A stretch of 64,000 nt of DNA from Bryum argenteum (Eukaryota > Streptophyta > Bryopsida > Bryales > Bryaceae). The translations under genes and the position numbers were made by a program. Below, in pieces: positions 24,993 to 62,925 of the stretch (its first letter is position 1; each line of letters begins with the position of its first letter). The DNA lies in the NCBI GenBank assembly GCA_037043015.1, contig CM073321.1, positions 3,787,001-3,851,000 on the forward strand. The letters run 5' to 3'. Below the pieces are notes generated by a model. The model worked only from the letters and a program-made list of their open reading frames with translations. It was not told where the DNA came from and searched no databases.

Positions 24993-24995
24993 ATA

Positions 24996-26634
24996 CAGTG
25001 ACTCACAAAAGTTCCTGGCCAATGAACATGAAGCCACTAGGCATGCAACTAAAATTCAAAATGATGAATCTTCATTCCAAATTTGGCATGCAGAAACATC
25101 ATCATGTGCTGCAGAAGCAACTGGCTTCCTGTAGGTGATACAAGTGCTGCATTTTTGTAGGAGGGGTTCAATGAATCTTGAAGGTGGCCAACTACATATG
25201 TTGATTCCAGTGGCTTCATGCTTCATTTGTGTTTTCTATGTGCATAGAGATCTTTCAGAGCTTTTACAGGTCATATGTTGCAAGCCTTCACAACTTTGAG
25301 TGGTCAAGATGACGAAAACCAGTTTTTATAAGCGTTCACAAGTTATAGCTTTGAGTGAGCAAGGATTCTCTCAACGTTTCATAGTAGGTCATCTTTACAT
25401 TCCTCGTAGCACAATTGGAGGCATTCTAGCACGATACAAAGAAGATGGACGCGTGCACGATCGTCCACGATCAAGAAGACTACGTCTTCTTAGCATACGT
25501 GATGAGAGACTTGCTGTGAGGATGTTGAATGAGCCAAATCAGGAAATGCAGTAGTTGTAGGTCGTAAGTTGCGAGCTTAGGGTCTTTGTTTGTGTAACAA
25601 GACTCTCCGTTGATGTTCCGGCGGCAAGGGCTTGGATTTAGAGTGAAGAAGAAGAAACCATTGTTGACCAATAAATATAAACAAAAGCGCTTACAATGGG
25701 CAAAGGCTTCAAAGGAATGTGAAGTAGAAGATTGGAGCCATGTCATTTGGTCAAATGAATCAAAGTTCAATGTTTTTGGTTCAGATGGTTGTCAGTGGTG
25801 TTGGAAAAATCCTGCAGAGCCTCTTCATGATTGTCATGTTCAGCCTACGGTTAAACATGGTGGTGGTAGCATTATGGTATGGAGATGCATAAGTTGGGCA
25901 GGTGTTGGAAATCTCTACCGCATTGATAGCATCATGAATTCACAAGTTTATCTTGACATTTTGGATTCGCAGTTGCTGGATACCATTGGGAGACAAGATC
26001 TTAATGAAGCACAAGTGATCTTCCAGCATGATAATGACCCAAAGCACACATCTGGTCTTGTGCAACGATGGTTGGAGAAGCAGAATTTTTCTGTGTTGGA
26101 GTGGCCAGCGCAATCTCCTGATTTAAATCCCATCAAGCACTTGTGGAATGAAGTAGATAGACGCTTAAGGTTGTCTGGCACTTTGCCAACATGCAAAGAT
26201 GACTTATGGGAGAAGATCCAAGTTGTTTGGCAGAACATTGAAGTGGAATTTGTACAAAAGCTCATTTGCACAATGCCAACAAGGGTGGTTGATCTTCTTG
26301 CAGCTAAGGGTGGATACACACGTTGGTAGACTTGTAGATGATGTACCATCCGCTACTAACCAGCTTTCAAGTTCATTGCATACACTTTGATCAAGTTTAG
26401 TTTGTGTTTCATGATTTCATATCAAATCAACAATAGTTCATGGCCATGGTTGTTGCACAGTTCTTTTAATTTCTCATTCTGATGTAATTTTCTTTATATC
26501 AGATTGTAACCACATTTTCCTCACAGCAAATGTGGTCTCTAAGACTAATCTTATTTATTAATTCTCATTAGTTTAGAAGATAGTTTCTAATTTCACGTTC
26601 ATAGAGGGTGGCCCAAAACTTTTGTGAGTCACTG
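24996..26634 (+). mobile_element. Tc1/mariner element, 1,639 bp, TA target duplication
   Basis: Ends are CAGTGACTCACAAAAGTT on the left and its exact reverse complement on the right, with weaker similarity inward over about 45 bases. TA flanks each end (24,994-24,995 and 26,635-26,636), the standard Tc1/mariner duplication. It encloses one degenerate transposase on the plus strand. It landed just before the start codon of the DUF7869-like copy 3; removing it rejoins that gene's leader. Confidence 0.93.
25309..26329 (+). pseudogene. Tc1-type DD34E transposase, catalytically dead and frame-broken
   Basis: The N-terminal frame (ATG 25,309 to stop 25,552-25,554) carries the paired helix-turn-helix region: S-E-Q-G-F-S-Q-R-F-I-V, then T-I-G-G-I-L-A-R-Y-K, then a basic R-P-R-S-R-R-L-R linker. 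After a stop and a frameshift the catalytic part resumes (25,610-26,329): V-I-W-S-N-E-S-K-F, G-G-G-S-I-M-V-W, F-Q-H-D-N-D-P-K-H-T, S-P-D-L-N-P-I-K-H-L-W. The usual WSDES aspartate is Asn and the PIEHLW glutamate is Lys; only the middle Asp remains. Thirty-four residues separate the second Asp from that Lys, matching DD34E spacing. The protein cannot be active, though the terminal repeats are well kept. Confidence 0.92.
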
Positions 26635-27333: not shown

Positions 27334-28960
27334 GCAACGCACTCCAATCAACCCCGCCAAATCATCACGCCTGATCAACCTACTAAGCGTGTGTCGCCTA
27401 GTCAATTGCGGTCGAAGCCCAAGTAGTTGAATGTGGTTTTGGAGTTGGATGGGGTCCTCCACTCTATTGCCCCTTTGTCGGAGGTGCCTGCAGAGTGCCT
27501 TTGGTTTCTTGATCGGATACCCAAGCTCGTTCATTCCTCCAGTGTCCCGACCATATTAGCTAACACTGTCATTTATTGTCGTCCCGGGGTTGTTGCGTTC
27601 CTCCGGTTACTTAGTTTATTTTGTGACATCCATATTTGGAGTACTCTGGATGCCAAAGTTATTTGCGGCTTGTACTCCTTCTTGTTTGAGGGGTCCAATG
27701 TTGCCCCTCACGTTGTCATGGCTTCCAACCAATGCGATAACCTCTTGTTGAAGAACTACGCAAAGGCCACGTACCCCGGCACAACGAAGGCCATTATTTT
27801 TAGATACCCGCGGCGCCGGTTGTACACTAGGAGGGATTTCAGTTTTCGTGACCAGAACTTGCTACTTATCGACAGTAAATCCGAAACCTGCGTAGTCGTT
27901 GATCCATTGAATACCCTTTTCCCGGACCGGTGGAATCATTCAGACCCCGGGTGTTCCAAGGCTCTAAAGCAGTTAGGCGAGATTATTCTCGCGGTTCACT
28001 TGAATGGTCGTGATTGCTTCCATCAGACAATGCGTTGTCGTATGCCTACAAGTAATGACTTACCAAGGGACTCAGACTTGTGTAAACTTTTGATGCGTAA
28101 TCTTTCCTATCTGTGGAACTAGCATCTCATCACCGGGAAGAAGCTCCCATGAATTCTAATATCTTTAGTATTTCTTTTGATATTCCAATACTCCAAGTTT
28201 GAGAATCTTTTTAAATACTATGGTCCATGAATCTCGTTAATTTATACCTGTCTACATATTGGAGGTTTCACGACGTGACTCTCATTTGCCCACTGCTCTC
28301 TTCGCAACCCTCTGGCATACCAATCTCCAAAGTGGTCCTTCTACGGTTTCGTATCCCTCTTTCACTAGAGCGGACTCCAGGACTTCGTCGGAAAGGGAGA
28401 GGAGATGTTTGCTCTTTCCTGCTTCAGATGATGCCTCGGCTGTCGATTACACTAAGTAAGTCATGGACAATGATGAGAATAATGTTGTCAACATTCCTCT
28501 CGTTGGCACTAATCTTGATGTCCTTGGATGAAGGCGTGCCCGTGATTACAGTGCCTCCTGAGTCACTGGAAGGTGACACACTCTTTTTAAAATCAGTGAT
28601 TGGTGACGGATCGGATTTAGCTCTGCCGGAGCTAAATCGACCTGCGCAAGTAAGAGGGGCTCGCCAAACCATGACTGTGGTTCAAACCCTCGTGTTCAAC
28701 CGACTAGGTCATTGAGTTTGACTCATCCCTGTTACATCAACGTGGTGTGAAGCAATATAGAGACGACGGACTTGTAGAGTCATTAGAGGGAGTCGTAGTT
28801 AGGACACCTGAATAAACTCTTAGTGAGGATTCTTGCGTACATTTCACCTCCCAGCTAGGTGATGCTATGAAGATAGTACTCTGATTACTTGTTAGAGGTC
28901 TACAATAACACCAATAATTTTTTTTTGGACTTCTTTTGCAATAAAATGATTTCTTTCAGG
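27334..28960 (+). pseudogene. HAD/FCP1-like pseudophosphatase gene, copy 1
   Basis: Exon begins after a TTTCTGCAG acceptor. The core resembles the FCP1/NIF (HAD) fold: strand L-E-L-D-G-V-L at motif I, Y-C-R-P-G-V-V-A-F-L-R-L-L, H/D-I-H-I-W-S-T (motif II), then N-L-L-L-I-D-S-K (motif III). The motif I nucleophile expected as D-x-D reads E-x-D, so phosphatase chemistry is unlikely. Compared with the copy at 38.2-39.8 kb, TAG at 27,424-27,426 replaces a Trp codon and TAG at 28,120-28,122 replaces a Gln codon. A downstream part (28,300-28,720) matches the acidic C-terminal exon of copy 2. The 3' sequence GAGGTCTACAATAACACC matches copy 2 before an AATAAAA-like signal near 28,940. Confidence 0.62.
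28614..28638. repeat. Hairpin of the TTTAGCTC...GAGCTAAA type (copy 1)
   Basis: Arms GATTTAGCTC and GAGCTAAATC pair perfectly around TGCCG. Related hairpins occur at 36,356 and 39,546, with different but matching outer base pairs. Confidence 0.75.
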
Positions 28961-35692: not shown

Positions 35693-37789
35693 TTGGAACA
35701 GATGTGCCAGGCTGAGACATATGTTGTTATCAGCGAGACCGAGAAGGAGGCTTATACGAATGCTGCGACGGATTACCAACATCTGGACTACAACGATATG
35801 AACGTCGCAGCATACGTAAATCCGGAAGCTAATCGCGGTCCCAAGCCTTCTACTGAAGGGTCGGGGAAGGGAAAGAAGAGGAAGTCTAAGAAGAAGACCA
35901 CCCAGCCTGTAAGCGACAACTCTTCCGCTTAAGAGCACGAGCGTGAAGATGAAGGTGGTCCTTCTTCTCTGGCGGGGATGAATTCCCCCATGGATTCGGC
36001 TGTTCTTCTGGTGTCTCCTCCCGCAATTGACTGGGCTGCGGTGGCAATTCCGTCCAGTACTGCTCGTGCTCCCCCTCGTGGTCGTGGTACTGCTCGTGCT
36101 CCCCCTCAGGGTCGTGGAAGCGGTTGAGCTCGGTCTTCTGCGTCTCATGGCCGCGGTACAGCACGCGCCCCTTTGCACGAATCTACCAAGCGTTCTTCTT
36201 CTGAGGCGCGAGCTGGAGAGGCTTCTCGGTCCAGAAGCGCTATTGTGCCTCAAGCACAGACGGCGCTTGAAGCCAACTATGGCGCCCGCGATGTTGTCGG
36301 GGACATTCAGAGCCCCCCCCTCCAGCGCTTGCGTCGTGGTCGACCATCGGACGAGGGTTTAGCTCGAGTCGAGCTAAACCAGCAGTCTCCTGGGGTCGTC
36401 GATATTGGGGCCGCTGGGACTCCGGTTCAGCACACTGTTCCACCCCCGGGGTTTCGAAGGGAGGTTCGTTCAAAGAACTCGAACGATCGCATCTACCGGG
36501 ATATCTTTGGCAAAGACGATGTAGAACCTGGGCAAGAGCGTCTGCCACGGGATGCATCATCATCCGACAGCTATGACTCGTCAGACAATGACGATGTTGA
36601 GGGTGCGAGCGATGCCGACAGGGACGACAATGACCAAGCTGATGATGCTGATCTCGGGGCCATGACCTTAGACGACGAGGTGGCTCCTGATCCATCCCAG
36701 GAGGAGACTACTTTGGCGCCTCCTCCCCAAGGCCCGCAGAGCGCACCCAGGAGGCAGATTGAGAAGGGGAAGTACGACAAATGGTTCGTAAAAGGTGTTT
36801 GGAAGCCCGAGGACGAGCCGGAGGATACTATGGAAATCCGGTTTTACGACTTCTCGGAGGAGCCTAGTTCTCCAAAGCCTTTGAGGGCTGAGGATGATCC
36901 TCTTCTCCCTGTCGTGCCTCTGCTCAGGGAAGAAGGAGAGCCTTCACAACCACCAGTGAAACTGGAAGTTGTCGCCCCCATGCTCACGAAGGATCAGAAG
37001 CGAGCACAGAAGCGGCAAGAGAAGGAGGCTCTGAAGGCTCGCAAGGCAAAGGAAGAAGCGGAGAGAGAAGCGGAGAGAGAGAAGCAAAGGTTAGCAGATA
37101 TCGCAGCCACGAATGCTCGAGTGGACAGATTGGAGTCCACATTCCTGAGCTCTCAGTCCGAAACCCGCATGGCACTAGGCAAGATGGAGCAGATGTTTCA
37201 ATCATTCGGAAATATCTTATCCCAACTGCCTAGTTATCCTAAACCCATTGCCTCCATCAACCCCGATCAACCTCGCCTCAGCATCTGTGACGCGAGTCCA
37301 CCAGCCATCGTCGCGCCTCCACAACCTCCCATCGCCGCGCCTCCACAACCAGCCATCGTCGCGCCCCCACAGCCTCCTATTGATGCTGAACCGGAGATCG
37401 CACCCCGCCCCATACCCCTCGAGATTTCGGAGAAGCCGGCGAAAGAGGATGACGTCCCGATTGAGGCAGCGCCGACGCCGACCCATCACACCTCTGCTGT
37501 CGCATTGGGGGAGCATGCAGAAGTTGCTCCTACCCATGACTCTCCCGTGGCTGCTACCGATGTTCCTCCTACCCATGACTCTCCCGTGGCTGCTACTGAG
37601 ACGGCTATAACTTCACCGGTAAATCCGGAAGTTAGTTACTATCCTTTCCTTTTCTTTGTCTTTGTGATCGTTGATGGTGATGGCAGTTGCTCTGCTATTC
37701 CCTCATGTCTTCAAGTTTATGCATTTAGTAATCTTAAAGCCGGCGCTCCTTGTTTGACAGGAGTCCGGCACCGATGGCGGCGAGTAGAT
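35693..37789 (+). pseudogene. RG-rich, acidic, coiled-coil and Pro-rich protein with two nonsense codons
   Basis: One frame spans TAA 35,930-35,932 and TGA 36,125-36,127, then is open to an intron. Order: K-R-K-S-K-K-K-T; RG repeats (A-R-A-P-P-R-G-R-G-T); L-A-R-V-E-L-N encoded by a hairpin; acidic S-S-D-S-Y-D-S-S-D-N-D-D; a segment G-K-Y-D-K-W-F-V-K-G-V-W; a charged helix (K-R-A-Q-K-R-Q-E-K-E-A-L-K-A); and Pro repeats (I-V-A-P-P-Q-P). A donor GAA/GTTAGT near 37,629 and acceptor TTGACAG/GAG at about 37,762 would remove the hydrophobic stretch and end the protein in E-S-G-T-D-G-G-E. About 650 residues. The nonsense codons fit CAA to TAA and CGA to TGA. The layout recalls a structural or gag-like element protein; no named family. 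Confidence 0.55.
36356..36380. repeat. Hairpin of the TTTAGCTC...GAGCTAAA type (copy 2)
   Basis: Arms GGTTTAGCTCGA and TCGAGCTAAACC are exact reverse complements around a single G. It lies within the coding frame (L-A-R-V-E-L-N). Confidence 0.85.
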
Positions 37790-37889: not shown

Positions 37890-39819
37890 CTCTTTTATTT
37901 CACATCACTTTTTATCTTCAGTGAGTCTGCGTCCTTCTCATCACAAGGCCCTAAACTTCGTCCTTTTCTATCAGGCCCCCCTTCTAAATACCTTGTTCCG
38001 TCCGATTGCTTCAAAATCCCCCGCCAACCACCTCATGTTACGTCTGGGTGTGGCGGTTCAGTACCCAATCAGTGCTGGCAGTTCTTTGCATACTTCAGCA
38101 TTTTGCAAGGTACACACCCTCTTGTTTTAATACCATTTGCCACTGTTACGTGTTCCCTCACTGCAGGCAGGACCGCCCAAACATCCCAAACAGCGTATCT
38201 CGCCCGAGCTACCCATTACGCATATCTCCCGCAGTCTTTTACGGTCCAAGCCCAAGTGGTTGAATGTGATGTTGGAGTTGGACGGGGTTCTATGTTCGAT
38301 GGCCTCTGTGTCTACCCCAACGCCTGCAGAGTGCCTGTCTTTTCCGGATCCCAATAATCCTCCGGTGTTTTCCTCCACCGTCCCAACCTTAGTTGCCAGC
38401 AGGGTCGTCTACTGTCGTCCCGGGTTGACCGGGTTCATTCGTTTACTAAATTTGTTTTGCCACATCCACGTCTGGAGTATCCTAGAGCCTATGGTTGTCC
38501 ATGGACTCTGCTGCTTTTTGTTCTCGAAGTCAGACGCTACCCCTGGACTTGTCTTGGCTTCCAACCAATGCGATAATCTGTTGTTGAAGAATTACGCATT
38601 CGCCAAGTACCCCGGCACGACAAATCCCATCCTCTTAAAATATCCTTGACGGCGGTTGTATCCTAGGAAGGGTGCCAATTTTAATGACGATAACTTGCTC
38701 ATTGTCGATTCCAAGCGTGAGACTTGCATTGCGGTTCCCACAAAGAACACACTTTTCACTGTTCCGTGGAACCATTCCTGTCCGGAGGATCCAAAGTCCG
38801 ACTTCTTGAAGAGGATAGGCGAGATATGTCTTTCCGTGCATTAGAATGGTCTTGAGAATTTTGCAGAGACTATGCGCCATCGTAGACCCACGCATAATGA
38901 ACTGTCGAAGGACTCAGAGTTGTATATGCTCTTGAGCCGTAATCTTCCATATTTGTGGAATCAGGACCAATTGAGTGGGAAGAATTTGCCTTAAATTCTT
39001 TTATCAGTGGTATTATTCTGGTTTTTACCCTAGAGAGCTTATGTTTACCGGTTGCTTAGATGGAGATATATTGTAGATCGATTGGTGAATCCACCCTCGA
39101 CATACATGATTAAATGCGTTGTTATATTGTGTACCTTTTTCATTGCACTTAGTGTCTTGGACTCACTTGCTAATATGGTTGAATTTATGAACCAGGTTGC
39201 TGCTGTTGGACGTCAACTCTCTCCACATCCATCATGTGCTTTGCAAGCAAATCTTGTAATTGGTCCTTCGACGGTTTCAGAGGCTTCCATTACAAGTGAC
39301 GACTCCAGAACTTTCTCAGAACGAATGCGGGGACGGCTAATCTACTTTGCTCCGGACGATGCGTCAGCTGTAGACTATACGAAGGAGGACATGGATAATG
39401 ACGATGATGGTGTAGTAGACAGTCCCCCTATTGAGATTCAACCAATTATTGCAACCGGCAATGATCGAATCGGTGTAATGACCTCGGTTGTTGCGGCTCC
39501 CCAAGGTGAAGCTGTATTACGCAACGTCGTCGTCGACACCCGTGCCTATTTAGCTCGATTCGAGCTAAATAGTTTCTTGCCAAATACTGTGGCTCATTGC
39601 TCTTTATCTCTTGGGGCAAACACTCGCGTTCATCCAAGACGATTTTCGACTGAGACTCACCGTCTATTACGGAGACGTGCACCGAAGCGTCGTAGAAGTG
39701 GTGGGCTTATGGAGATGGACGAACCTGCCTTCTCTAAATACACACGTAGTGAGGACCCTCTATTCACTAAGAATGATACTTCTAGTGATACCTCCTCTCC
39801 GCCACGTCGTAATTGGTAG
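37890..39819 (+). pseudogene. HAD/FCP1-like pseudophosphatase gene, copy 2
   Basis: A first exon (about 37,920-38,108) ends TTTTGCAAG/GTACAC; the intron ends CTGCAG near 38,166. The second exon contains M-L-E-L-D-G-V-L, Y-C-R-P-G-L-T-G-F-I-R-L-L, H-I-H-V-W-S-I and N-L-L-I-V-D-S-K, matching copy 1 and the FCP1-like layout, again with Glu in place of the nucleophilic Asp. TGA 38,647-38,649 replaces an Arg and TAG 38,842-38,844 a Leu of copy 1, so each copy has different stops. The last part (39,200-39,819) is acidic (M-D-N-D-D-D-G-V-V-D) then basic (R-R-R-A-P-K-R-R-R) and contains the hairpin at 39,546. AATAAAATTTT at about 39,888 may be the polyadenylation signal. Confidence 0.65.
39546..39572. 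repeat. Hairpin of the TTTAGCTC...GAGCTAAA type (copy 3)
   Basis: Arms CTATTTAGCTCGA and TCGAGCTAAATAG are exact reverse complements around a single T. It encodes L-A-R-F-E-L-N in the pseudophosphatase frame, at the position corresponding to the hairpin in copy 1. Confidence 0.85.
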
Positions 39820-40097: not shown

Positions 40098-40120
40098 GTT
40101 ATCCCCGGCCCGGGGATAAC
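40098..40120. repeat. 23-bp palindrome, 3' flank of the second ParB-type gene
   Basis: GTTATCCCCGG and CCGGGGATAAC arms around C. It lies about 28 bases beyond the inferred stop codon of the minus-strand gene at 40,148-43,103. Same family as the arrays at 43.2-44.1 and 51.2-53.3 kb. Confidence 0.9.
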
Positions 40121-40147
40121 CAATACAAATTGACATCAGAAAGATAA

Positions 40148-43103
40148 TCAAGATATCAATCCATTAGAAGAGATGAATTTTGAGCCGGAAAGGATACCGA
40201 GGGTTGATTCACCCTTCTTGCAGTACTGGCGGATGAGTCCAATGTAAAACTCCATCCGCAGCTCCGAGTACTTAGCACACCACTTGGATTCGTTATAGTG
40301 CCCACTATCTATGTAATACGGCACATTTGGGGCTTTAAATTCCGAGGGGTTGGTGCCGACGAAGGCTTGCCCTTCTGGTGTCTTCTTGAACAAGAAGACG
40401 ATGAACACGTCGTTCGCAGCTTTCTCTGGGGATGGGGCGTTGAAGATCTACTCAGATGTGGACTTCTGATACTTCGATGTGCTCATTGTGTAGTTTGGGT
40501 GGCTCGCCATAATCATCGCCTTCAGCTTATCCAGCTTCTTCTTGACGGCGCCATTCACGATCCATACCCATACAGTAGGGTCTGTGTAAGCCGGATTTGA
40601 GATCACCGCGAACTTTGCTACCAAGGCTTTGAAGAACTCCTTTGAAGAATCGGAGTTCTTGCACAGCGAGAAGGCAGTGTCTCGCAAGTCAAACAGCCCA
40701 AGAGAAACTGTTCCTGCAGGCGCCGGAGTTGACCATTGGCCACTGATATTCATGGCCTTCGAGTCGAAGGTTCGAAGATAGAATCCCTTGGTGGACTCCC
40801 GATGCTTGGTCTTCTCCCGCAAGAAGTTCTTGAAGAAGTCCTTGGTGTTGGGAAACATGGACTTCATCTCCCCGGCCGTCTTGCACTTCTCCTGATTCTG
40901 CAGGCGGGTTGAGTAGAATTTTGCCTCCGGGTGACTGATCAGCATGTTCCACGAAGAGAAGCCCTTCCTCGACTTCCATTTCTTCCATTTCTCTGGGCAT
41001 ACTCCTCCACCGTTGGGAAGGAAGAATGGAAGAGATGGTCTGACCGCCTGGAACTCTTGGTATACAATTGCCTTGCACTTCTGTCGAATTATCCAATCAC
41101 CACATGCGTGGCTCAAGCGATGGAAGTATTTTGTCTTGTGAAAGGACAATCTGGGATACTTCATTGCTCCTTCGGCGGTTTCAACGTGGACTAGGAAGGT
41201 GATGACCCTGTCGATGTCATCATCGGAAAGATTTCCGAACTTCCTAAAGAACTCCCGGCTCACATGATGCTTATGGTTCGTGAAGTAAGCCGGGTTCATG
41301 CGATAAGCATCACCTGTGTCGGGATTGATAAGATTACCAAGGAAATGGAGTTCTAGGAACTCGACGAACTTATCGTACGTAGTGTCCAGAAACATAATGA
41401 TCTGGATCTCGTGCTTGAGGTCCGATGTAGTTAGAATTGACTTCCCTGCCTTGGTGGGGTCGATGTTTCTGAACCGGATGTTGAGCAGATCCGTGAATTT
41501 CTGAGAGACATTGAAATGAAGTGTTAGATGCGATAAGTGCAATTCTAGGAGCTAACAAAGAGCATGTCTAAGCGCTAGAGCCAAGTTATCCCCGGGGCGG
41601 GGATAAAAGTTCCAGTGTTCCTGCTAATGGCGATTGAGATGAGACTGCAACAGACTGAGAATTATCCCCGGCCCGGGGATAATCTATGGGGACTATGTAG
41701 AGTCTTACCTTGAAATTGGTGGGACTGTAGACCGAGTCGTTATTGCGTGTCGCGTTCTCGTTCACGCTTGCGGCTGGCCGGCCACAGTCAATCCAAATAG
41801 ACCTTCCGGATCTTATCTGGTTGCCCCACGTCGGCTGGACGTGCTTAAAAGGATTTGTGGTGTTGTAGAATGCCGAAATCGAAGTGAGGCGCTTCGGGTC
41901 GGTCTTGTATAGAATGTATGCATACCACAATAAAAGTTCTTTCTTCTTGTCCTCTGTCAATGGCTCGTTCTGAAGCTCCCTCAAGGCTTCCACGGAGTGC
42001 TGGCCATCAATGATAGCAAATCTTCCATCCTTGATTTCCTCCCATGTTGTAGGTCGCCTAGGAAGCAAATCTCCATAAGATGGGGGTGATGATAATTGTT
42101 TGCCTCCGGTCGCCATCGCCCATCATTGAGAGGAATTTCTTGGTATTCGTCACGATGTCCCGTTCAAGACTTCGCACTACCCACATGTGCTTTCCCCTCA
42201 CAAGCTGCGAAATGGGCACCAGCTTCTGTTCTTTCTTGAACAAGAATGAGTCCTTGAAACTAGCGTTGAAGCATGTCTGCACTGAAGCAAACCTCACATA
42301 GTCTACGACTTCAGCCGAAGGTTTGGAAGAATCCTTCTTCTGACGAGCGGGCACTTCGACGGTAGAAGTCAATGCCGATCCTTGACTTGTTGTTGCAGGG
42401 GAGCGGTACTCTGTCTCTTCTTCTTGGGGGCAGCTCCGCCCGCTACAATCGCATCATTCATCAGCCTCTTTGCAGGCACTCGCGGAGGAGCCGGCAAAGC
42501 ACCACTTGAGAGCGGGGCTAAAGCCTCTGAATGCACGACAAGTGCAGAGGACGCAGGTGCCTTCTTTTTCTTCGCAGCTCTACTGCTTGAGCCCTCATGC
42601 GTCTGTGACAGTCTTGACAGCATGGTCGACAGCTTACGAACTGTATCTTCTTGGTTGATGTTCTCTCAGCTCTTCATGTTGTCCTCCCAGAACTTCAGAA
42701 AGCCATGCCGAGTCTTGCGCAGTTCCAGAAGAAAGCCGAACGGGTCAAACTGTGCTCCACAGTTTGCACCCACCTCTACCACAATCCCGAAGTGGTAAGG
42801 TTCCCTGTCCTCGTCCACCTGTAGAAGGACACACCTGAGCAGCATGTACTTCTGCCTGTGTACTTCGAATGCTGTCACTCTTAGATTCTGGTACAAGGGA
42901 AGGAAGGGGTCCGTCAAGACCAACTTGGTCATGACCAGAACATGGTTCTTGACGATCTTCAATGACCAGCTGGTGACCACCTCCTTGAAGAGCTAGAGAT
43001 CAAGGCTTTCATCATCGTTATTGCTCAGGAATGGGTTGAACCCAAATGGGTGCTGGACCTTGTTCAAGGTGTACTCGAGGGGATTTGTGTCGCTGAGAGC
43101 CAT
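40148..43103 (-). pseudogene. Second ParB/Srx-like (DGQH) gene with probable methyltransferase-type C-terminus
   Basis: ATG at 43,103 starts M-A-L-S-D-T-N-P-L-E-Y. Exon 1 runs to 41,709 (AAG/GTAAGA donor), exon 2 from 41,500 (CTCTCAG acceptor), in phase. Residues L-V-P-I-S-Q-L then A-I-I-D-G-Q-H-S-V-E-A-L match the ParB/sulfiredoxin signature, with Ser where DGQHR has Arg. The C-terminal K-W-C-A-K-Y-S-E-L-R, L-I-R-Q-Y-C-K-K-G-E-S-T-L-G-I-L-S-G-S-K fits the EKP-helix and SAM-loop region of permuted DNA methyltransferases, less clearly than the gene at 0-3.9 kb. Breaks: TAG 42,993-42,995, TGA 42,666-42,668, TAG 40,448-40,450, a frameshift near 42,400 and one in a C run near 42,090. About 900 residues if restored. 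Palindromes lie in the intron, 3' flank and promoter. Divergent from the first gene, so an independent element. Confidence 0.62.
41585..41683. repeat. Two 23-bp palindromes within the intron of the second ParB-type gene
   Basis: At 41,585 (GTTATCCCCGG/GGCGGGGATAA, asymmetric centre) and 41,661-41,683 (ATTATCCCCGG and CCGGGGATAAT around C). Both fall inside the 208-bp intron 41,501-41,708. Confidence 0.85.
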
Positions 43104-43158
43104 CGTTTGGTCTGCAATCATTAAAAGCAACTCATCAGTACTAATGCCAAACTAATTA

Positions 43159-44125
43159 GTTATCCCCGAGGCGGGGATAATGTTGTTCTAGTCTAGCTGA
43201 TTTCTACGACTGAGCTACGGAATTATCCCCGACGCGGGGATAATCTGCCGTTGTCCTTTGTAGAACTAATAGGCAAGGGCAGAATTATCCCCGGGCCGGG
43301 GATAACTGTTACTTCATCGTGGTGTATGTTTTTCATTTTTTTTTATTTCTTTTTGGCTTGGCTCTAGTCTACTCATTATACCTAAGGAGAGACTGCAGTA
43401 TTATCCCCGGCCCGGGGATAATTCTTTTCTATATTATGTTATAATATGGCAACTCACAATATTATCCCCGGGCCGGGGATAATTGTTGCAGTTTGGTACT
43501 GTATCTGAGTCGTTTTTAAGGAATTATCCCCGGGCCGGGGATAATTAGTTTCGTTTCTGGGTCAAAAGAAATGGAAATTGTCGATATTATCCCCGGGCCG
43601 GGGATAATTGTTTGGGTATATTGCTAGCTTTAGTGCGTCTATTAGAAGTTATCCCCGGGCCGGGGATAATATGTAGTCATTAATTGTGGATACGACATGA
43701 CAATATTATCCCCGGGCCGGGGATAATTATTGGAGTTCATTACTATCTGATATGCATTTTTATGGAATTATCCCCGGCCCGGGGATAATTAGTTGTTTTC
43801 TATGTAAATAGACCTTGCAAATGACAAACTTTTCCCTGGCCCGGGGGGAATTGATGGGTTCGTTTATTTAAGTAGCTTGTTTTTTAGGAATTATTCACGG
43901 CCCGGGGATAATTTATTTTTTTATGTTTAGCCCGGGAATAATTGTTGTACTTTGTTACTACTTTTAGTTCGTTTTCAGGAGTTATTCCCGGCCGGGGATA
44001 ATTTGTTGTTTATTATGTTTTAAATTACAAAATGACCAAAATTATACGCGGCCCGGGGATAATTCTTTTGTGCACATGACAAATACCGTGCTTGCGCGAG
44101 ATTTATCCCCGGCCCAGGGATAACA
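43159..44125. repeat. Array of about sixteen 23-bp palindromes upstream of the second ParB-type gene
   Basis: Units are R-TTATCCCCGG, one variable base, CCGGGGATAA-Y. Intact arms start at 43,159, 43,222, 43,284, 43,400, 43,461, 43,523, 43,586, 43,648, 43,705 and 43,767. From 43,400 the spacing is 61, 62, 63, 62, 57 and 62 bases. Later units (near 43,827, 43,890, 43,925, 43,980, 44,041, 44,102) are decayed. Spacers alternate between two related types, one with a TTACTATCT-like centre ending TTTTTANGGA, the other ending in ATGACAAT/ATGNCAAA, so the true repeat is a dimer of about 124 bp. The first palindrome is 56 bases before the ATG at 43,103. Confidence 0.92.
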
Positions 44126-45429: not shown

Positions 45430-48350
45430 CCTTTTTAATTTTTTATTTTAATTTTAAACAAACTTTGTTTACGTATTAATTCCAAATTGTTTAATTTATT
45501 ACTACAATAAATTTTAATAATTGGTATATTAGATAATTGATATATTTCAAATCCTTCTGCAATACATTAGATCATTTAATCCAAGTTCGGAATACCTATT
45601 CATTCATTATTTTTCTATAGATATTTTCACTAAGTTTTGTACACAAATGTAGTCATCTTTGCTTTGTAGTTTAGGTGTTAGTTTAGAATACTAATTTATT
45701 CATGGTCTATTCTAAAAAGTTCTGTCAAAATTTAGTATGTGAAAACCTTTGTCTTACACATATTTTGCAGCTATACAAAATGCATATTGTTTGTTGTCTT
45801 TCAAAGTCCATGTTTTCAAAGTTGATTCATTCACTATTATGAGCCTATTTTTAGGTAAATGAGAATTTTAATTAATATATACTAAGTGACCATGACTATG
45901 ACCATGGTTGTAGACATCGTAAGGGTGAAGCTTAAATCCTCAATTTGTTTATTCTAAATTGAATTCTAAATCTTGCATTCTAAATTTGAATTAGTGTTTT
46001 ATTATTTTGTATTCTAAAATTAAACTCAGGTATTCTAAAAATGTATTCTAAGATGAAGTTCTTCTAATCAGAAAGTGAATATTGATTTGTAGTTGAATAA
46101 TCATCAATTTTTGTCATAGTTTGCTATGGTTAAAATTGTCCACTTATTTGTACGTTCTAAAGTTGTATTATAAATTTAAATTCATGTATTCTTAGATTGT
46201 ATTCTAAAAATAGTATTTCTTGGATTTGGAATGGAAAATCACTATTTGAAATGGAAAATCACTTGAAATATTTTAGAACATTTTATCAAAGTTTAGGATG
46301 CCTATTCATTTTCAGTTTTTTGTAGATATTTTCACTTAGTTTTGTACGCAAATGTAGTCATCTTTCCTTAGTATATTATGTCTTAATTAAGAACACTAAT
46401 CTATTCATGGTGATGGCAATGAAAGGAAAAAAAAAAAAAAAAAAACATTGCTTACTTTTTTTTTCTATTTTTTTTACTTCAATACTTGGTTTTTTAAATA
46501 AATTTGGTATGCAAAGAGTTTTGAAAAACTTTTCAGTTCTTAATCCAAGTTTAGAAAACGTAGTCATTATTCGTTTTTTTTTTAAAAATTTGACTTAGTG
46601 TTCTATTCAAATAAACTTTTGTTTCCTTGGAAGATCATGTATAATCCCTAACTTTCCTTAAAACCCGAAACGAGTTTTGGAGGTTCCAGCACGAGAAAAA
46701 ACTCAGCCAACTTTGACCATTATAATCTCACAAATGGGGAAAAATGAACGGTTTAAATTTAATTTGTGGAGGAATGTCAAGTGAATCTTTGAGGTCTTAT
46801 GGTTGAATCTTTCAAAGAATACTTAGATTGAGATTTTTTGAACTTAATCTAAAGGGAAGTGAAATTTTGTGACTTAGACTGTCTTGCAACAAGGTAATTT
46901 AGGGGTTAAGTTCTGAATACAAGACTATTTTAGGTCTGTTCTATAAAGTATTTTCTAAATTAAGTTCGTGAAAGACCTTTGTCTTATAAATATATGCTAC
47001 TATACAAAATGCAAATTCTTTGTTTTTTTCCAAAATGCTTTTTCAAAAGGTTTAGTATTAAATTACATATGTTTTTGTTTGTACATATATTCCTGATTAA
47101 GTTTAAGATAAAATTTCAAAAAGTCTATGTATTCAAGATAGAAACACTGACAATCATGATCCTATGATCAGGTAGATTCGAATTCTATGTATTATATGCT
47201 AAGTTTAGAAGCTTCTGAAACATTCTAAGTTTTAATATCAGTGTAATTTTTTATAGGAATTACATAAAATTGCCATGGTAGGTAACAAAATCAATGTCAA
47301 ATAAGTTTGTGCAGTTATGTCCATGAAATTTCTTAATCTAATTTCATTTCAATTCTAAGGTTGTATTTTAAAACCTTAGCTATGTGAGTATTGATTGTAC
47401 AATTAGAACATGTTATACTATTGCAATGTAATTATGTAACTGAAACTTTGGTCTTTTTCATCTATGGTAGAAAAACATTGATGCAATACACATATTGTAA
47501 ATAAGGTATGGAATAATTTATTACCAATTAATTGAAATTTCATCCAAATTATGTATGACAAATATACATTATTACTAATCTCCATTTGCTCTTTTGGTAG
47601 AGAATAAATCCTAAGGAATCAAATAAGAAAATTCCCCAAAGATCTACTAAACTATGATGACACCAAGTATTAAAATAAGTTTAAAGGAATCATAGATCTT
47701 TCAAAGGAAAGTAACATTTATTTATTGTGTTTGATATTAATCAGCAATAAAACCATAGAGTTCATGTACTTAATAAAAAGAAAAATAAACTAACACTATT
47801 TCTGTACCATGAAATGTACTCTTACATATTTCAAGGACTCTATACAAACGGTTATTTTTGTATTCAACTATTATATGTTATATATGTATAAGTCAATAGA
47901 GCTTTAGTTGCCTGATGATCCGACCACAACACCCGCATGTGATTGAACAGGCACTATCATCGTCGTGACGAGCCTCCACGGGATCACTAGCATAAGCTCC
48001 TTACTAGGGCGTCGTGTCTCGGTATCAGGCCCTTGCTCGTGCTGCTCCTCAGTCCTCACTCATCGGGGTGAACCTAGGAAGAGATGTCTCCATTGCCTCT
48101 GCTCATGGTGCTACTGGTGATGCCTGATAACCCGCACGATACTCCGAGTTGTCCGAATCGTCACCGTCGGAGTCGCTAGAAGCGTCATCACATTTCTTCT
48201 TCTTTGATATCATAATAAGATTTTTTTGAACTAAATCTAAATAGCATTTCTAATGTGTGAGTCATTCATTCCAAGCCTTCAAAGGCGTAATTTTAATTCT
48301 CTCAAGCTAGTTGTCATTGCTATTAAGAAAAAAAAGTTTAGGTACATATA
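45430..48350. other. AT-rich spacer, with a small GC-richer relic at 47.9-48.2 kb
   Basis: Low-complexity AT-rich sequence with an A run at 46,427-46,444. ACTTAGTTTTGTACRCAAATGTAGTCATCTTT occurs twice as a diverged duplicate (about 45,631 and 46,333; phrase is longer than shown only by a few bases). At 48,215-47,930 the minus strand briefly encodes K-K-K-K-C-D-D-A-S-S-D-S-D-G-D-D-S-D-N before stops, probably the acidic tail of a lost gene. Confidence 0.4.
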
Positions 48351-50415
48351 ATGAATTATAATAATTATAATATAACATAAATTAACATATTAAGATATAA
48401 TATTATAGAGTATAATATTATACAATATAGTACAATAGAATATCCTTAAATATAAGATAATAAACTATAGTATACTATATTATAATATACCAAACTTCTT
48501 CCTTTTTTTATATATCGGAGTTAAAGGGGATCGGACTAAATATCAAGTTAGAAATGAATGCAAATTAAAAAAGGAATAACTTTAAAAATCTTGCAATATG
48601 AATTGACAAATGATAATCATATAGTACAATAATTATAATCATATAGTGTAATAATAATAATCTAACATAACATACCTTAACATAATGGTATACAATTTAA
48701 TATTGCATACTATAGTATAACAAAATATAATGTACTAAAATATAGTATAACATAGTATATTTTATTATAATAGAATATAAAACGATAATATAAATATGTA
48801 TAAAAACATAATAATATATCATTATCATATAATATGACGTAACATTAATAATGTAATTCATTTTCATATAGGAAAATATATCATACTAGAATATAATATA
48901 ATATAAAATAACAATTTCTATATTTTATAAAGTATTAAAAAGACTTTATAATACAATATAATACAAAATAATACAAAGATAATACGGAAAATATTGGAAG
49001 TTACAGAAATTGAAGTAAATAATAGTATGATATAGTCTAATAAAGTATAGTATCGTATTTTTAGTATACCATAGTACAATATAGTAAAATATAGTATAAT
49101 AGACTACAAAATAATAATTATTTAGTTCACATAAATTTTAATCATATAGGACAATAAAATCTATTATAACATAACTTAAATGCACAATGGTTGCAAGTTA
49201 ATATAGTTTAATATCGTATCACATAGTATTATATAGTAATATATTCTATCGAATAATTAGTATAATATAGTATAATATATTATAATATAGTATAATATAT
49301 TATAATATAGTATAATATAGTATAATATAGTATAATATAGTATAATATAGTATAATATAGTATAATATAGTATAATATAGTATAATATAGTATAATATAG
49401 TCTAATATAGTATAATTTACTATAATATAGTATAATATATTAAAATATAGTATAATATAGTATAATATAGTATAATATATTAAAATATAGTATAATATAG
49501 TATAATATAGTATAATATAGTCTAATATAGTATAATATAGTCTAATATAGTATAATATAGTATAATATAGTATAATATAGTATAATATAGTATAATATAG
49601 TATAATATAGTATAATATAGTATAATATACTATACTATAATATAATATAATATAATATACTATACTATAATATAATATAATATAATATAATATACTATAA
49701 TATAATATACTATAATATAATATAATATAATATAATATAATATAATATAATATAATATAATATAATATACTATAATATAATATACTATAATATAATATAC
49801 TATAATATAATATACTATAATATAATATACTATAATATAATATACTATAATATAATATACTATAGTATAATATAATATACTTGTAATATAATATAATATA
49901 ATATAATATAATATAATATAATATAATATAATATAATATAATATAATATAATATAATATAATATAATATAATATAATATAATATAATATAATATAATATA
50001 ATATAATATACTATAATATACTATAATATAATATAATATAATATAATATAATATAATATAATATAATATAATATAATATAATATACTATAATATAATATA
50101 ATATAATATAATATAATATAATATAATATAATGTAATATAATATAATATAATATAATATACTATAATATACTATAATATAATATACTATAATATAATATA
50201 ATATAATTCTATATTGGATAATATAATATAATTTAATATAATATAATACAACATACTATTATATACTATAATATAATATACTATAATATAATATACTATA
50301 ATATAATATACTATAATATAATATACTATAATATAATATAATGTAATATACTATAATATAATCCAATATACTATAATATAATATACTATAATATAATATA
50401 CTATAATATAATATA
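48350..50415. repeat. AT microsatellite, TATAATATAG / TATAATATAC / TATAATATAA
   Basis: An increasingly pure array. Before 49,250 it is irregular TA-rich sequence; 49,260-49,625 is dominated by the 10-mer TATAATATAG; 49,625-50,415 by TATAA/TATAC 5- and 10-mers, long ATAAT runs and TATACTATAATATAA units. Array lengths in assemblies of such sequence are unreliable. Confidence 0.95.
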
Positions 50416-51172
50416 TGTTACTCTAATTTTGTAGTTATTATAGTTTATTCAATAAATTCATTGATACAAATTTGTATTTTTTTTTCCACTTCTCATAGTT
50501 ATGTATAGATTGTTCAATTTTATAGAGAAAAATATAAGACAATATTGTTTGTAAAATATAAAAATTGATAATTAGAAATGGGTTTCCCTCCAAAATCAGT
50601 TTCCCGCCAAAATTCCTTTGCCGCCTAATACTTTCAAAATTCTGTTTTAAAAAGTGGAATCGTATTTAGAATCCTACTAAAGACAAAGTCCATATTGCGA
50701 CAGAATTTGTGGGCTTTTTGCACGATTTCGGGCGTCGAGATACTCTCACGATGTAGCCGTTGAGGTCAGGCTCGGGTTGCATACTCTGTCTCTCAGGTGT
50801 CCTTTCATTTTCTCCTCTCTCTCGTTCTTGCTCTCAAGGTGCGCTCCATTTCATATTTCGTTCCGGTGTGTAGGTTCAAGGTTGCGTGTGTGTAGAAGAA
50901 GTTTCAGTTGGTGCTTAGTGCGTCTGATGTAGTTTCGCATTTAGAGGTTTCAGTATTGTTGCATTAGTTTGATAATGATTCAAGTTAAGACTATTGCTCG
51001 TCATGTATTTTTCGACTTCTGTATTCGGTACTAGTTTTTTTGTGCTTGGTTTTTTCAGTTGCGAGCCCTTCTTTTCCTTTCGAATTCTGCAATTCGCAGG
51101 TGAGCGATGTTCGCAAATTGAGTGCAAGGCATGAATGACAGTGTTTCAGCACTTACTATTAATAGAATGAAA
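50416..51172. other. Unique spacer before the second palindrome array
   Basis: From 50,760 the sequence becomes pyrimidine-rich (CTCTGTCTCTCAGGTG, TTTTCTCCTCTCTCTCG), like a plant transcript leader. No coding frame follows until 53,374, so if it is a promoter or leader the array lies in the leader or its intron. Confidence 0.35.
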
Positions 51173-51713
51173 GTTATCCCCGGGCCGGGGATAACTTCTA
51201 CTGTCTGTGGGGATTATTCCTGGAATCTATGCTCCGATAATTATCCACGCACCGGGGATAACCTTGCATCCACCCAAGAAGACCATTATCACCGGGCCGG
51301 GGATAACATTAATTTCGTGGGCAGTAGAAATATTATCCCCGGACCGGGGATAATATTTTTTGGTGGGCAGTTGCACGGTTATCCCCGGCCCGGGGATAAC
51401 TATGTAACCGCCAAAAAAATATTATCCCTGGCCCGGGGATAATATTTTTTTGGCGGTAACATAGTTATCCTCGGGCCGGGGATAACCTTGCATCCTCCCA
51501 CAAAATAATATCCCCGGCTCGGGGATAATATTTTTTTGGCGGTTACATAGTTATCCCCAGGCCGGGGATAACCATGCATCGGCCCAAGAAAAAAATATTA
51601 TCCCCGGGTCGGGGATAATTTACATTGACATTTAGGGTCCATTTTTATCCCCGGGTCGGGGATAATTTACATTGACATTTAGGGTCCAGTTTTATCCCCG
51701 ATTCGTGGATAAT
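51173..51713. repeat. Second 23-bp palindrome array (twelve units), with nested dyads
   Basis: Units start at 51,173, 51,240, 51,285, 51,332, 51,378, 51,421, 51,464, 51,507, 51,550, 51,597, 51,644 and 51,691, mostly 43-47 bases apart, so a shorter period than the array at 43-44 kb. Spacers form inverted pairs: 51,401-51,420 (TATGTAACCGCCAAAAAAAT) and 51,444-51,463 are reverse complements with one mismatch, so 51,378-51,486 is a 109-base near-palindrome built from three palindromes. The last spacers are direct copies of TTTACATTGACATTTAGGGT. Confidence 0.92.
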
Positions 51714-53253: not shown

Positions 53254-53276
53254 GTTATCTACGGGCCGGGGATAAC
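53254..53276. repeat. Last palindrome of the second array, beyond the LTR insertion
   Basis: GTTATCTACGG/GCCGGGGATAAC, one arm slightly decayed. Without the insertion it would begin 38 bases after the start of the previous unit, continuing the array to 98 bases before the next gene's ATG. Confidence 0.85.
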
Positions 53277-53373: not shown

Positions 53374-55866
53374 ATGGAGACTTTTGTTGTCAACGGTGTC
53401 GATTTCCGACCACTAGTTCTACCTGAAGGAGTTGCACAGTGCGAGGGTTTTAACCGTTCATCATGGGTGTCAAAACGAGTCACTCTTCTGAATGACGCCG
53501 GTGTCGACGTTGCAAAAGCTGTTTGTCAATCGGTTGACTCAAGTGTCGTCCCAGAGACTGGTGGTCGGCCTCTTGGATCCGACTTTGTCTGCGTGCAGAT
53601 AGCAGAGTCGTTAGTAGAAGCAGAGGTTCCTTTCAGTTGGATCTACTCTTTGCGTGCATGGCCAATCACGCATGTCCTTCTCAACGGAGCAAGCCTCTAC
53701 GACCACGACCAACGCGCCATCTTCAATGCGGCTTGCAAGGTTTTTGGTCGGCCACCACGAGTTGGTCTTCGCCAGCACGAGAGCAAACGTCAAAGGCGTC
53801 TTCGGGATTCACCACCTAAGAAGGAGTACTTTCTTACACCGGAGTCCATCAACTTTGTTTCCACAGCTTATTGTTGTCCAAAGAACTGTGTGCAGCCCTA
53901 TCCTCGAGGCAAAATTAAAGATATGAGGTTCCAGTTCTATGTTCGCGGTGATGTTTACTTCAGAACACATTGTCTCTTTAGTGTACATGGTCAAGTCCAC
54001 GAAGCAGCGGACGGAAATGACATGATTATGTTGGAGGGTATTGAGGTGTGTTGCGTGGCGTGGTACCTGATTATGGGTGTGTCACGTGCCACATTTTTCC
54101 GGTGGAGGTATGCCCATCAAGACGGACAAGAAGCAGAGGACCATGGAAACTGTGGTTCAAAGAAACCTCGTATCCAGACATTGCAAGCCACAACATCCCT
54201 TCAAGCCATTGTGGAAAATGCTGCCGATCTCATGCCGCATCGAACAAAGACTATTGATACGGGCGAGAAGGTAGTGTCCAAATGCTTGCCCTCTTCCTTC
54301 CGCTGGAGGGACAGTTTACCAGAGGTGAATGCCATCAATGTCGTCCACGGTCTTCCTCCTATATCAAATTCTGCTCTAAGTAGGATCCGGCAAGAATCAT
54401 TCCAAGAGTACTATTCCAAGCAAAAGAGTGACACATTTCCTCGTTGTGGTGAATGTGACAAAATTAAACAACTTCGAGCATCCAGTACTCAAGGCTGTCG
54501 CGCATGGGCTCTTCATGATGCCAAATTCAAACGGCATAATACTTCTCAAATGGCGCATAGGTTGCTCTATTATAGTAACCGTTCAGAGTTTGAAGCACGG
54601 CCCGAATCGTCTTTGTGCATTATTCATGACAAAATGGATCATTCCAAGACAGCCTCTCCGCAATTCTCACACAAGAGTAAATCGACCGATTCCTTCATGA
54701 AATTGTTGGTTTCCATCGCAGGCATGATTGCTCATGGACACGGAGATGTACGTTACGCACATTACGGCCTCGATATATATCCCACGGATTCTAATCATAC
54801 TATCGGTTCATTTGCTCAACTGTTAAGAGATTTGGAATCTCCTCCAAAGTGCTCTTGCAGGCACTTGTTTGGTGGTGGTAGAAGTAGCCCTCTCTCTTAG
54901 GCTGTTTTGGATGGGGCGGACATGTGCTTGGATTCGCTTGGTCTTCTCCCAGAGGCTCCAATCCCGGGAAAGGCTCTTCCTCCGGTGCTACACATGCAGC
55001 TAGATAATGCTTGCGGGGATAATAAGAATCGGTTTGTTTTTGCATTCTTTTCACTGCTCGTGTACAAGGGCGTTTTTAGAGAGATTTACTTGAACTTCCT
55101 TATTGTGGGTCACACACATGAAGATATTGATGCTCTTTTCGGGCGATGGAGTTGTAAGCTCAAGACCAACAGCTACCCTACTGTTCCCCTTCTCATGAGA
55201 TCTTTCATGGACACAAAGGATAAGCCGGTAATTCCTCACTTAATTGAGGAAGTTCCGGATTTCAAGACGTTCATCAAAGGTTACCTCTATGATGGCGACG
55301 AGGCGTTATCTGGGCATACTAGTGCCCAAGAATTTAGGTGTTTTAGAGATGCTTCCGGCTGGCCTTTGATGCAGTACAAAATTCTGTGTACGGATAGCGA
55401 GTGGCTTCCTCAAGATAGTGCAGGGGTTAGGTTGTGGAAAGTTTTGCCAAATGGTAAACCTCAGGTTCCTCTTGGAGATCCTACGTTACTAGTTCCAAAC
55501 GAAATGAAGAATATTGAAGACATTCGAAAGGGAATTAGTGGTTTTGGGAGCTTGTGGGAGTCTTTGGCGGATGCTGATTCAACAGGCGACTATCGTAGAC
55601 ATCATGAACAATTCATTTACTATTGGAAAGCAGTTCGTGAGGCTTTAGATTTACCCGTCCCTGTTCCATCAACGTTTAGGGATGGATTTTGGCCTACTTC
55701 TAGGTACTCTCCAAGTGAAGAGGATCGATTTGAAGATAACGGAGAATTGCGCGAGGAATTTGCTGTTGATCCTCCGTTCGTTGGACAAATACGAGATCGT
55801 CCACAAGCATCATTTAGAGTTGGACGGGATCTTTATGAGGGATACCTACCAGGGTTGTCTTGCTAG
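53374..55866 (+). CDS. DUF7869-like mobile-element protein, best copy, one in-frame TAG
   Basis: About 830 residues from ATG 53,374, which follows TTTGTTGTAG/G, a possible acceptor of a leader intron. N-terminal part: L-V-L-P-E-G-V-A-Q-C, L-L-N-D-A-G-V-D-V. Middle: C-C-P-K-N-C-V-Q-P-Y-P. Then C-I-I-H-D-K-M-D-H-S-K, M-I-A-H-G-H-G-D-V, H-Y-G-L-D-I-Y-P-T-D. C-terminal core: M-Q-L-D-N-A-C-G-D-N-K-N-R and V-G-H-T-H-E-D-I-D-A-L-F-G-R-W-S, the hallmark I recall for DUF7869. Conserved D, N and H-T-H-x-D-x-D suggest a metal-dependent nuclease or transposase core; that is inference. TAG at 54,898-54,900 interrupts the frame. It is preceded by CTCTCTCTT, so it could be the AG end of a short intron; copy 1 reads through the equivalent position with different sequence. 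Upstream is the second palindrome array, downstream the GTCAGACAGACATTGAG module. Two relatives at 12.1-13.9 and 24.2-25.0 kb are truncated. Confidence 0.68.
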
Positions 55867-58289: not shown

Positions 58290-58665
58290 TATATATCCTT
58301 GGAGACCGGCGGTCGCCCTACGATCGCCACCGGCGGTCACCCCCCAGTCCCATTGCCGCGATACCGCACCGGTCGTCGCGTTCGTTCATTGCCGCGAAAT
58401 TGCCGTGACCGGTCGCCGCTCGCGTCCCGGCATTGTCGCGAATAGTTTGACCGGCGGTCGCCCTACGTCCCGCTGTCGCGAACAGCTGCATCGGCGGTCG
58501 CCCTGCCTCCCGCTGTCGCGATTAGCTGCACCGGCGGTCGCCCTACCTCCTGCGTCGCGCCCCAGGTACTGCTGCGATCGCGCCCTTCTGGGGCCGGCGG
58601 TCGCCACGCAACGTCATACCTCTATCTAGACCGCCGGTCGCCTTGAATTTCTGGTCGCCCCGGCG
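58290..58665. repeat. GC palindromic array between divergent kinase and WCHI genes
   Basis: Units of CACCGGCGGTCGCCCTA-C followed by CTCCCGCTGTCGCGA(A/T)-AG-CTG at about 53-55-base spacing (58,440-58,560), with GACCGGTCGCCGCTCGCG variants before. It differs in unit from the 42-bp arrays but has the same GACCG/CGGTCGCC core. Being between two divergent starts, it could be a shared promoter region or abutting element ends. Confidence 0.78.
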
Positions 58666-58715
58666 TATATATTCCCCCATCGTATCTGAACTTCTTATTT
58701 GGGTTTACTGGCCTA

Positions 58716-58756
58716 GCGCGTTGTCTTACATCCATTAAATTGGCTGCATGCTCGTT
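58716..58756 (+). promoter_or_regulatory. Conserved upstream block of WCHI-family genes (copy 4), diverged
   Basis: GCGCGTTGTCTTACATC, spacer, TTGGCTGCATGCTCG. Same order and spacing as the blocks at 18.55, 21.45, 23.41 and 62.95 kb, with more differences. The ATG used here, 58,800, is 44 bases further on. Confidence 0.45.
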
Positions 58757-58799
58757 CCGGGTAGGTAATAACTATTTGCCATTTTTGGCTATTTCATCC

Positions 58800-59876: not shown

Positions 59877-59891
59877 CCATGTGTTGTTAAT

Positions 59892-62892: not shown

Positions 62893-62925
62893 GAGAAAAA
62901 TTCGTAGAAACGCAAAGTCCCTCTA

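Follow-up and report, generated by a model that had tools for sequence, protein, structure and literature searches.

In Arabidopsis, the VANC proteins of VANDAL (Mutator-like) transposons act on short family-specific motifs, which form arrays in non-coding parts of the elements, such as introns and the region ahead of the transposase gene (PMC5735166), and among VANDAL families the motifs are described as differing between relatives, with protein and motif co-evolving (PMC5735166; PMC10398659). In bacterial phosphorothioation operons, DndB is described as a DGQHR-motif protein that acts on palindromes of its own promoter (PMC4507180), and the TET/JBP-encoding DNA transposons of fungi are multi-gene elements that are thought to carry an anti-silencing gene (PMC12730594). 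Here, we describe a locus of Bryum argenteum within a stretch of 64,000 nucleotides (positions 3,787,001 to 3,851,000 of the forward strand of contig CM073321.1, assembly GCA_037043015.1), which is called the window throughout. The window contains a multi-gene DNA transposon in decayed form, with a gene that carries the motif IIDGQHSVEA (the DGQH gene), a gene for a protein with the Pfam domain DUF7869, and palindromes beside both. We consider it probable (roughly 0.64) that the palindromes act as operator sites for a dimer encoded by the element, that they serve self-regulation and escape from silencing, and that related families change the variable part of the site (n5) together with the protein. 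A search of the open literature, with Repbase and subscription papers outside it, returned no published description.

Palindromes in the window and across the genome

The window was scanned for the palindrome TTATCCCCGG-N-CCGGGGATAA (type 1) with up to 3 mismatches. The scan found 29 sites, compared to none in 100 dinucleotide shuffles, which confirms the palindromes as genuine and puts them well above chance expectation. Sixteen of the 29 (palindromes are given without strand) lie within 40098-44125, around the minus-strand DGQH gene: one in the 3′ flank (40099-40119), two in the intron (41586-41606, which is 1487 bp away from the 3′-flank site, and 41662-41682) and 13 in a promoter array (43160-44123) with a spacing of mostly about 62 bp. 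One further site at 4 mismatches and two that are recognisable by eye as decayed bring the promoter array to about sixteen, so that the arrangement given in a preliminary description of this DNA (palindromes in the 3′ flank, twice in the intron and about sixteen times in the promoter) is confirmed. That description overlooked a second array ahead of the DUF7869 gene, which consists of 12 sites at 51174-51712 (spacing 43-47 bp, the first one 67) and is followed by a site with 2 mismatches just 5′ of the coding frame (53255-53275). A sequence scan also found two palindromes of another type in the same frame, TTTAGCTCG-AGT-CGAGCTAAA at 36358-36378 and TTTAGCTCG-ATT-CGAGCTAAA at 39549-39569.

The DGQH gene runs from about 43103 to 40148 on the minus strand and is 75-81% identical, by piece, to an open frame of 996 amino acids in locus L066. 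Its coding sequence is interrupted by in-frame stops at 42995-42993 and 42668-42666, and the frame is broken at least twice, at about 42400-42447 and at 42078; its predicted GT-AG intron (41501-41708, minus strand), read from the sequence, contains the two intron palindromes. The DUF7869 gene, which encodes a probable DDE/D transposase, occupies 53374-55863 on the plus strand with an in-frame TAG at 54898-54900; the second half of its product matches DUF7869 in Pfam (expect value, E, 3.7e-35), and its likeness to open copies stops at 55848. A fragment of a third open reading frame (ORF), ORF3, is found at 47907-48050 on the minus strand (tblastn, 65% over 48 amino acids), and a long ATATAATATA-type tandem region lies between the DGQH and DUF7869 genes (49200-50420), as it does in the C9 and C7 copies of the transposon. 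Neither transposon end was found within the window; a right end is present at C1:3862496, on the same contig 11.5 kb past the window, and may belong to this copy. The window copy is decayed: its DGQH gene is interrupted as described, its DUF7869 gene contains one stop, neither end is present and the similarity ends at 55848.

In the genome searched (259 Mb, 25 contigs), the exact type-1 palindrome occurs 693 times, or 965 times with a free centre, and the reversed pattern does not occur. Positions 10 and 12 vary in 21% and 24% of 302 type-1 sites with up to 5 mismatches, and the remaining positions, the centre aside, vary in 1-7%, which points to a 21-bp palindrome made of two 9-bp half-sites CGGGGATAA (CG-n5-AA) around 3 nearly free bases; a palindrome with a free centre implies a symmetric dimer. 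Over six arrays in three copies, the 21 bases of the site carry 1.61-1.84 bits per position and the adjoining 20 bases 0.39-0.76, both figures being inflated because the sites were chosen by match and number 8-21 per array. The palindromes are not independent of the DGQH family, as 2-12 sites (up to 3 mismatches) were found at each of the best 30 of 150 DGQH loci (75-100% identity, window copy included). Across copies, sites are found in the arrays of both promoters, in the intron and 3′ flank of the DGQH gene and in ORF3. Among DUF7869 loci, where the promoter lies outside the pieces retrieved, such sites were seen in 1 of 30. Since they are kept while the spacers vary, the palindromes appear to behave as sites.

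That no protein is bound, and that the palindromes are passive features of the DNA such as hairpins or expansion-prone repeats, is highly improbable. Slippage can expand tandem arrays and perfect palindromes can extrude, but here the sites persist and the spacers do not. In addition, an intron site (up to 5 mismatches) stands at the same place in all 30 of the best DGQH loci, and 10 of these loci also have a 3′-flank site at a distance of 1487-1500 bp (for the 20 others, many pieces are too short to reach it, or none was shown). The 3-bp unconstrained centre is a trait of dimer sites, and the palindrome types described below have a CpG-containing frame in common but not their sequence.

Palindrome types of diverged members

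Diverged DGQH genes (identities are to the DGQH gene of the window) have other palindromes at the promoter place predicted from type 1. The 351 bp 5′ of a gene with 41% identity contain four copies (0, 1, 1 and 4 mismatches) of type 2, TTCAACTCG-ANT-CGAGTTGAA, and the corresponding 351-bp piece of a gene with 45% identity contains two perfect copies of type 3, TTATCGTCG-NNN-CGACGATAA. Two further types were met in the window (type 4, TTTAGCTCG-ANT-CGAGCTAAA) and beside the C9 copy (type 5, TTTAGGTCG-NNN-CGACCTAAA). Exact copies in the genome number 875, 127, 5,878 and 106 for types 2 to 5, respectively, and each reversed pattern has none; as a control, one scrambled palindrome of the same frame also had none. 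All five types fit the frame TT-n5-CG-NNN-CG-n5′-AA, with two CpGs at fixed places. This frame also accommodates 182 of 192 non-redundant perfect 9-3-9 palindromes, 176 of the 182 being type 1, in a set that comes from DNA fetched for type 1.

Types and genes were compared over the first 4.69 Mb of C1, which all three site listings cover and which contains 11 scored DGQH matches. Type 1 lies within 5 kb of five of them (75-100% identity, one being the gene of the window) and type 3 within 5 kb of three others (43-46%), and none of the 11 has two types. The remaining three (45%, 58% and 68%) have none of the three types within 5 kb; the 58% match gains a type-1 site within 2 kb once the centre is left free. 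Further along C1, two DGQH matches of 39-40% have type 2, with 8 sites each, and may be recent copies, their layouts being very similar. A gene with 57% identity has one decayed type-1-like site in the 251 bp upstream. A spacing of about 1.5 kb, which separates the intron and 3′-flank sites of type 1, is seen again in type 2, with six pairs at 1512-1520 bp. In type 5, 16 pairs are 400 to 3200 bp apart, and for 11 of them the distance is 1461-1507 bp. The exact type-1 listing, in which many of the intron sites fall outside the pattern, does not show this spacing, and neither does the type-3 listing. These results show that, within limits, the types go with the genes. The same palindrome layout with a separate sequence in each of the related families suggests that the element protein and its DNA sites evolved together.

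The arrangement resembles that of VANC and VANDAL in that type-specific motif arrays stand in non-coding parts and change with the protein, which was found for the three types with genes, among the matches listed and without a tree. The VANC21 motifs, however, have 9 bases and one orientation, whereas the sites described here are 21-bp palindromes in a fixed CpG frame. The transposase domain is another one and the target duplications are 4 bp, so the likeness is one of arrangement.

The presence of CG at the same two places in every type would also suit a host factor, such as a methylation-sensitive zinc-finger or silencing protein, that recognises CpG palindromes. We regard this as quite improbable, as the variable n5 tracks the gene families of the element itself, which a host factor leaves unexplained.

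The transposon and its candidate DNA-binding proteins

The ends of the C9 copy (copy A) are marked by an imperfect 28-bp inverted repeat (89%), and its termini, AAGGGGATAT and ATATCCCCTT, lie 19,157 bp apart; they match in inverted orientation, as in class II DNA transposons. Of 30 DUF7869 loci, 25 have a recognisable right end, and the flanks past CCTT are unlike between copies. All six copies with both ends read had a 4-bp target duplication (TAAA, TATT, AAGT, TTTG, ACAA and ATAG); a seventh was tried, but no right end could be located for it. Searches with the end sequences gave 40 scored matches each, out of 91 and 88 candidates. In L060 and L062-L064 the ends are altered. Blocks shared between the C9 and C7 copies measure 8.6 kb (95%) and 6.4 kb (88%). 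Some copies on C7, C8 and C10 span 34-40 kb between matching ends, and copies well above 19 kb probably contain nested insertions. The inverted ends and 4-bp duplications show that the element is a class II DNA transposon, which is multi-gene and about 19 kb long where complete. CACTA elements have CACTA ends and 3-bp duplications; the ends here are AAGGGG and the duplications 4 bp, which sets the element apart from CACTA/EnSpm. It is like En/Spm with its TnpA, and like the large plant CACTA elements (see PMC2613891), in being a large plant transposon that combines a transposase with a second protein and clustered repeated sites.

The element codes for the DUF7869 protein, the divergently placed DGQH protein and two further ORFs. 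When the best 42 of 150 scored DGQH matches were compared with 124 of 125 listed DUF7869 matches (one second piece was dropped), 22 of the 42 had a DUF7869 match within 30 kb, compared to a mean of 2.8 and a maximum of 9 in 2000 random placements on the same contig, and 21 of the 22 pairs were divergently oriented. Thus, the two genes travel together. Both are under purifying selection, since the ratio of nonsynonymous to synonymous substitution rates, calculated on whole open frames with the presumed intron included, was 0.18-0.46 in eight comparisons for DGQH and 0.06-0.49 in four of five for DUF7869 (the fifth was not computable). ORF3 is a serine/proline-rich frame, of 694 amino acids in the C7 copy, with 97 genome matches (several pieces per copy); in the C9 copy (L067:769-2850, minus strand), four palindromes lie in frame and are read as YPRPGDN or YPRAGDN, so that the protein sequence seems to be constrained by the need to keep the site. 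For the fourth ORF, there is only a 25-amino-acid match (E 0.002) to NIF-phosphatase-like ORFs that adjoin these elements. C1, the largest contig with 17% of the genome, holds 23 of the 42 best DGQH matches and 88 of the 124 listed DUF7869 matches, which may reflect a low-recombination or sex chromosome or the effect of considering best-scoring matches.

The preliminary description had named the DGQH gene ParB-type. This name was not supported: scans against Pfam, NCBIfam, PADLOC and PHROGs gave no ParB, DndB or DUF262 match for the protein, and among solved structures no credible match was seen. No match was found to a ParB domain (PF02195 or equivalent), although a remote fold could escape profiles, nor to the PF14072/TIGR03187 profiles. 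Six segments of the core have no Pfam match at E up to 10, plasmids gave no match to the core, and viral relatives of either protein were not confirmed in IMG/VR. The pentapeptide is DGQHS, at least 90% conserved in alignment A1, and not DGQHR, and a single-sequence structure model is too low in confidence to assign a fold (predicted local distance difference test score, pLDDT, 30.7). The ParB label thus appears to be a resemblance of motif only. A bacterial-type ParABS segregation locus is ruled out since the locus is a transposon; the palindromes beside the DGQH gene are parS-like in their placement. What stands of the proposal that protein and palindromes form one system is their co-occurrence and co-divergence, not ParB membership, and among the roles offered, transposition and self-regulation fit, segregation is not supported, and no evidence was seen for methylation by the protein.

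It is possible, although doubtful, that the DGQH protein is a captured ParB/DndB-type protein, a nucleoside triphosphatase of the ParB/Srx fold that acts on own-promoter palindromes as DndB does at TACG-N10-CGTA. IIDGQHSVEA resembles DGQHR/DGQQR, and YNTTN resembles by eye the FxxxN motif (motifs in PMC4619093); DndB binds two palindromes of its own promoter (PMC4507180). In a scan up to E 5, 2 of 16 DGQH members touched DUF6551 (best E 0.2, among other chance-level matches), a phage fusion partner of ParB-fold domains (PMC12704722). Against this stand the missing profile and structure matches, the unmatched core segments, the serine in place of arginine at the fifth motif residue and the low pLDDT. 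The likeness to DndB therefore lies in a DGQH-motif protein and CG-containing palindromes in the promoter of its own gene, here with DGQHS instead of DGQHR, with no profile match and in a eukaryotic transposon. By analogy, the DGQH protein may work like a ParB/DndB-type protein.

The DUF7869 protein is probably a DDE/D transposase. An open copy matches the profile (E 1.4e-41; in Pfam a domain of undetermined function), and HDKMDHSK, MQLDN and GHTHEDID were chosen by eye as candidates for the D, D and E/D residues; the structure model (pLDDT 36.4) is too low to assign a fold. This protein alone might bind the palindromes, with the arrays titrating or assembling transposase and the DGQH protein doing something else, which we consider rather unlikely. 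The transposon ends of the main family (AAGGGGATAT) have GGGGATA, seven bases, in common with the half-site CGGGGATAA; the transposase gene also has an array ahead of it, and the protein has an HTH-like (helix-turn-helix) stretch at about residues 275-298 with weak profile matches. However, the sites cluster in promoters, the intron and the 3′ flank, not by the ends, and in copy A the nearest site seen to the left end is about 1.6 kb inside (L069:5068).

We therefore return to the reading of the palindromes as operator sites of the element. An element-encoded protein would bind them as a dimer. Most likely this is the DGQH protein, given that DndB with its DGQHR motif binds palindromes of its own promoter; the second candidate is the transposase. 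By occupying the promoter sites, the protein would control expression of the element and keep silencing off, and GGGGATA could allow the ends to be recognised by this protein or by a partner. A joint change of n5 and protein would let families avoid cross-regulation. The two CpGs at fixed places in each type raise the possibility that binding resists or senses methylation, and binding of the CpG palindromes may be methylation-sensitive. An anti-silencing role is proposed by analogy with VANC-like systems, in which the protein binds the motif and removes DNA methylation. The TET/JBP fungal transposons are likewise multi-gene DNA transposons; no dioxygenase is present among the ORFs scanned here, and the gene would act, if at all, by site binding.

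Several results weigh against this reading. The 68% match (C1:237113) has no type-1 site in either the exact or the free-centre listing. Among 15 DGQH matches of 40-47% on C1 up to 15.74 Mb, seven have type 3, one has type 2 and seven have neither within 5 kb, and types 2 and 3 overlap in gene identity to the window's DGQH gene, the comparison being one of identity without a tree. No listed DGQH or DUF7869 match (best 150 and best 125, respectively) lies within 12 kb of 1 of 7 type-1, 6 of 9 type-2 and 9 of 18 type-3 clusters, so that a good part of the type-2 and type-3 clusters lack a neighbouring gene among the matches listed. No DGQH protein could be assigned to type 4 or type 5. Finally, no sequence profile ties the DGQH protein to any DNA-binding family; HTH-like matches were seen in the DUF7869 protein alone, and these are weak (E 0.072, 0.16 and 0.012).

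A more far-reaching version, which we find improbable, is that a captured ParB/DndB-type protein has diversified into orthogonal protein-palindrome pairs in a lineage of giant plant transposons. Each family would load its own protein at CpG sites about 1.5 kb apart and at dense promoter arrays, from where it would spread to keep the element active, as a eukaryotic ParB-parS-like anti-silencing system.

Neighbouring elements and significance

The window contains pieces of other elements. A second, diverged and broken DUF7869 gene lies at 11802-13802 (minus strand, 31-45% identity by piece) and a separate N-terminal DUF7869 piece at 24285-25046 (minus strand, 36%); both are what remains of further members of this element group. 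NIF-phosphatase-like ORFs, unusual company for a transposon, are found beside the elements at 27427-28119 (E 6e-4) and 38131-38649 (E 0.04) of the window and at L068:7317-8096 (E 1.2e-7), the last being the only one that passes Pfam's cut-off. A Tc1/mariner-type transposase remnant occupies 25598-26326 (plus strand, DDE_3, E 4.6e-11). ORFs at 58647-59873 (plus strand) and 61570-62922 (minus strand) are alike by eye (FRGWE...EWCHI), have no Pfam match above cut-off and are perhaps another mobile family; a RING-like ORF adjoins them at 59877-61130 (plus strand, E 5.9e-5, below cut-off). Outside the window, an AP2-domain ORF (E 1e-10) adjoins the C7 copy, and the genome is plant-like.

The presence of five site types with one frame and different cores in one genome amounts to a natural experiment on how the specificities of a protein and its site change jointly, and it bears on how large transposons stay expressed and yet spare the host. 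If the DGQH protein binds the palindromes, it would found a new class among the eukaryotic proteins that bind DNA sequence-specifically, one for which many natural variants exist.

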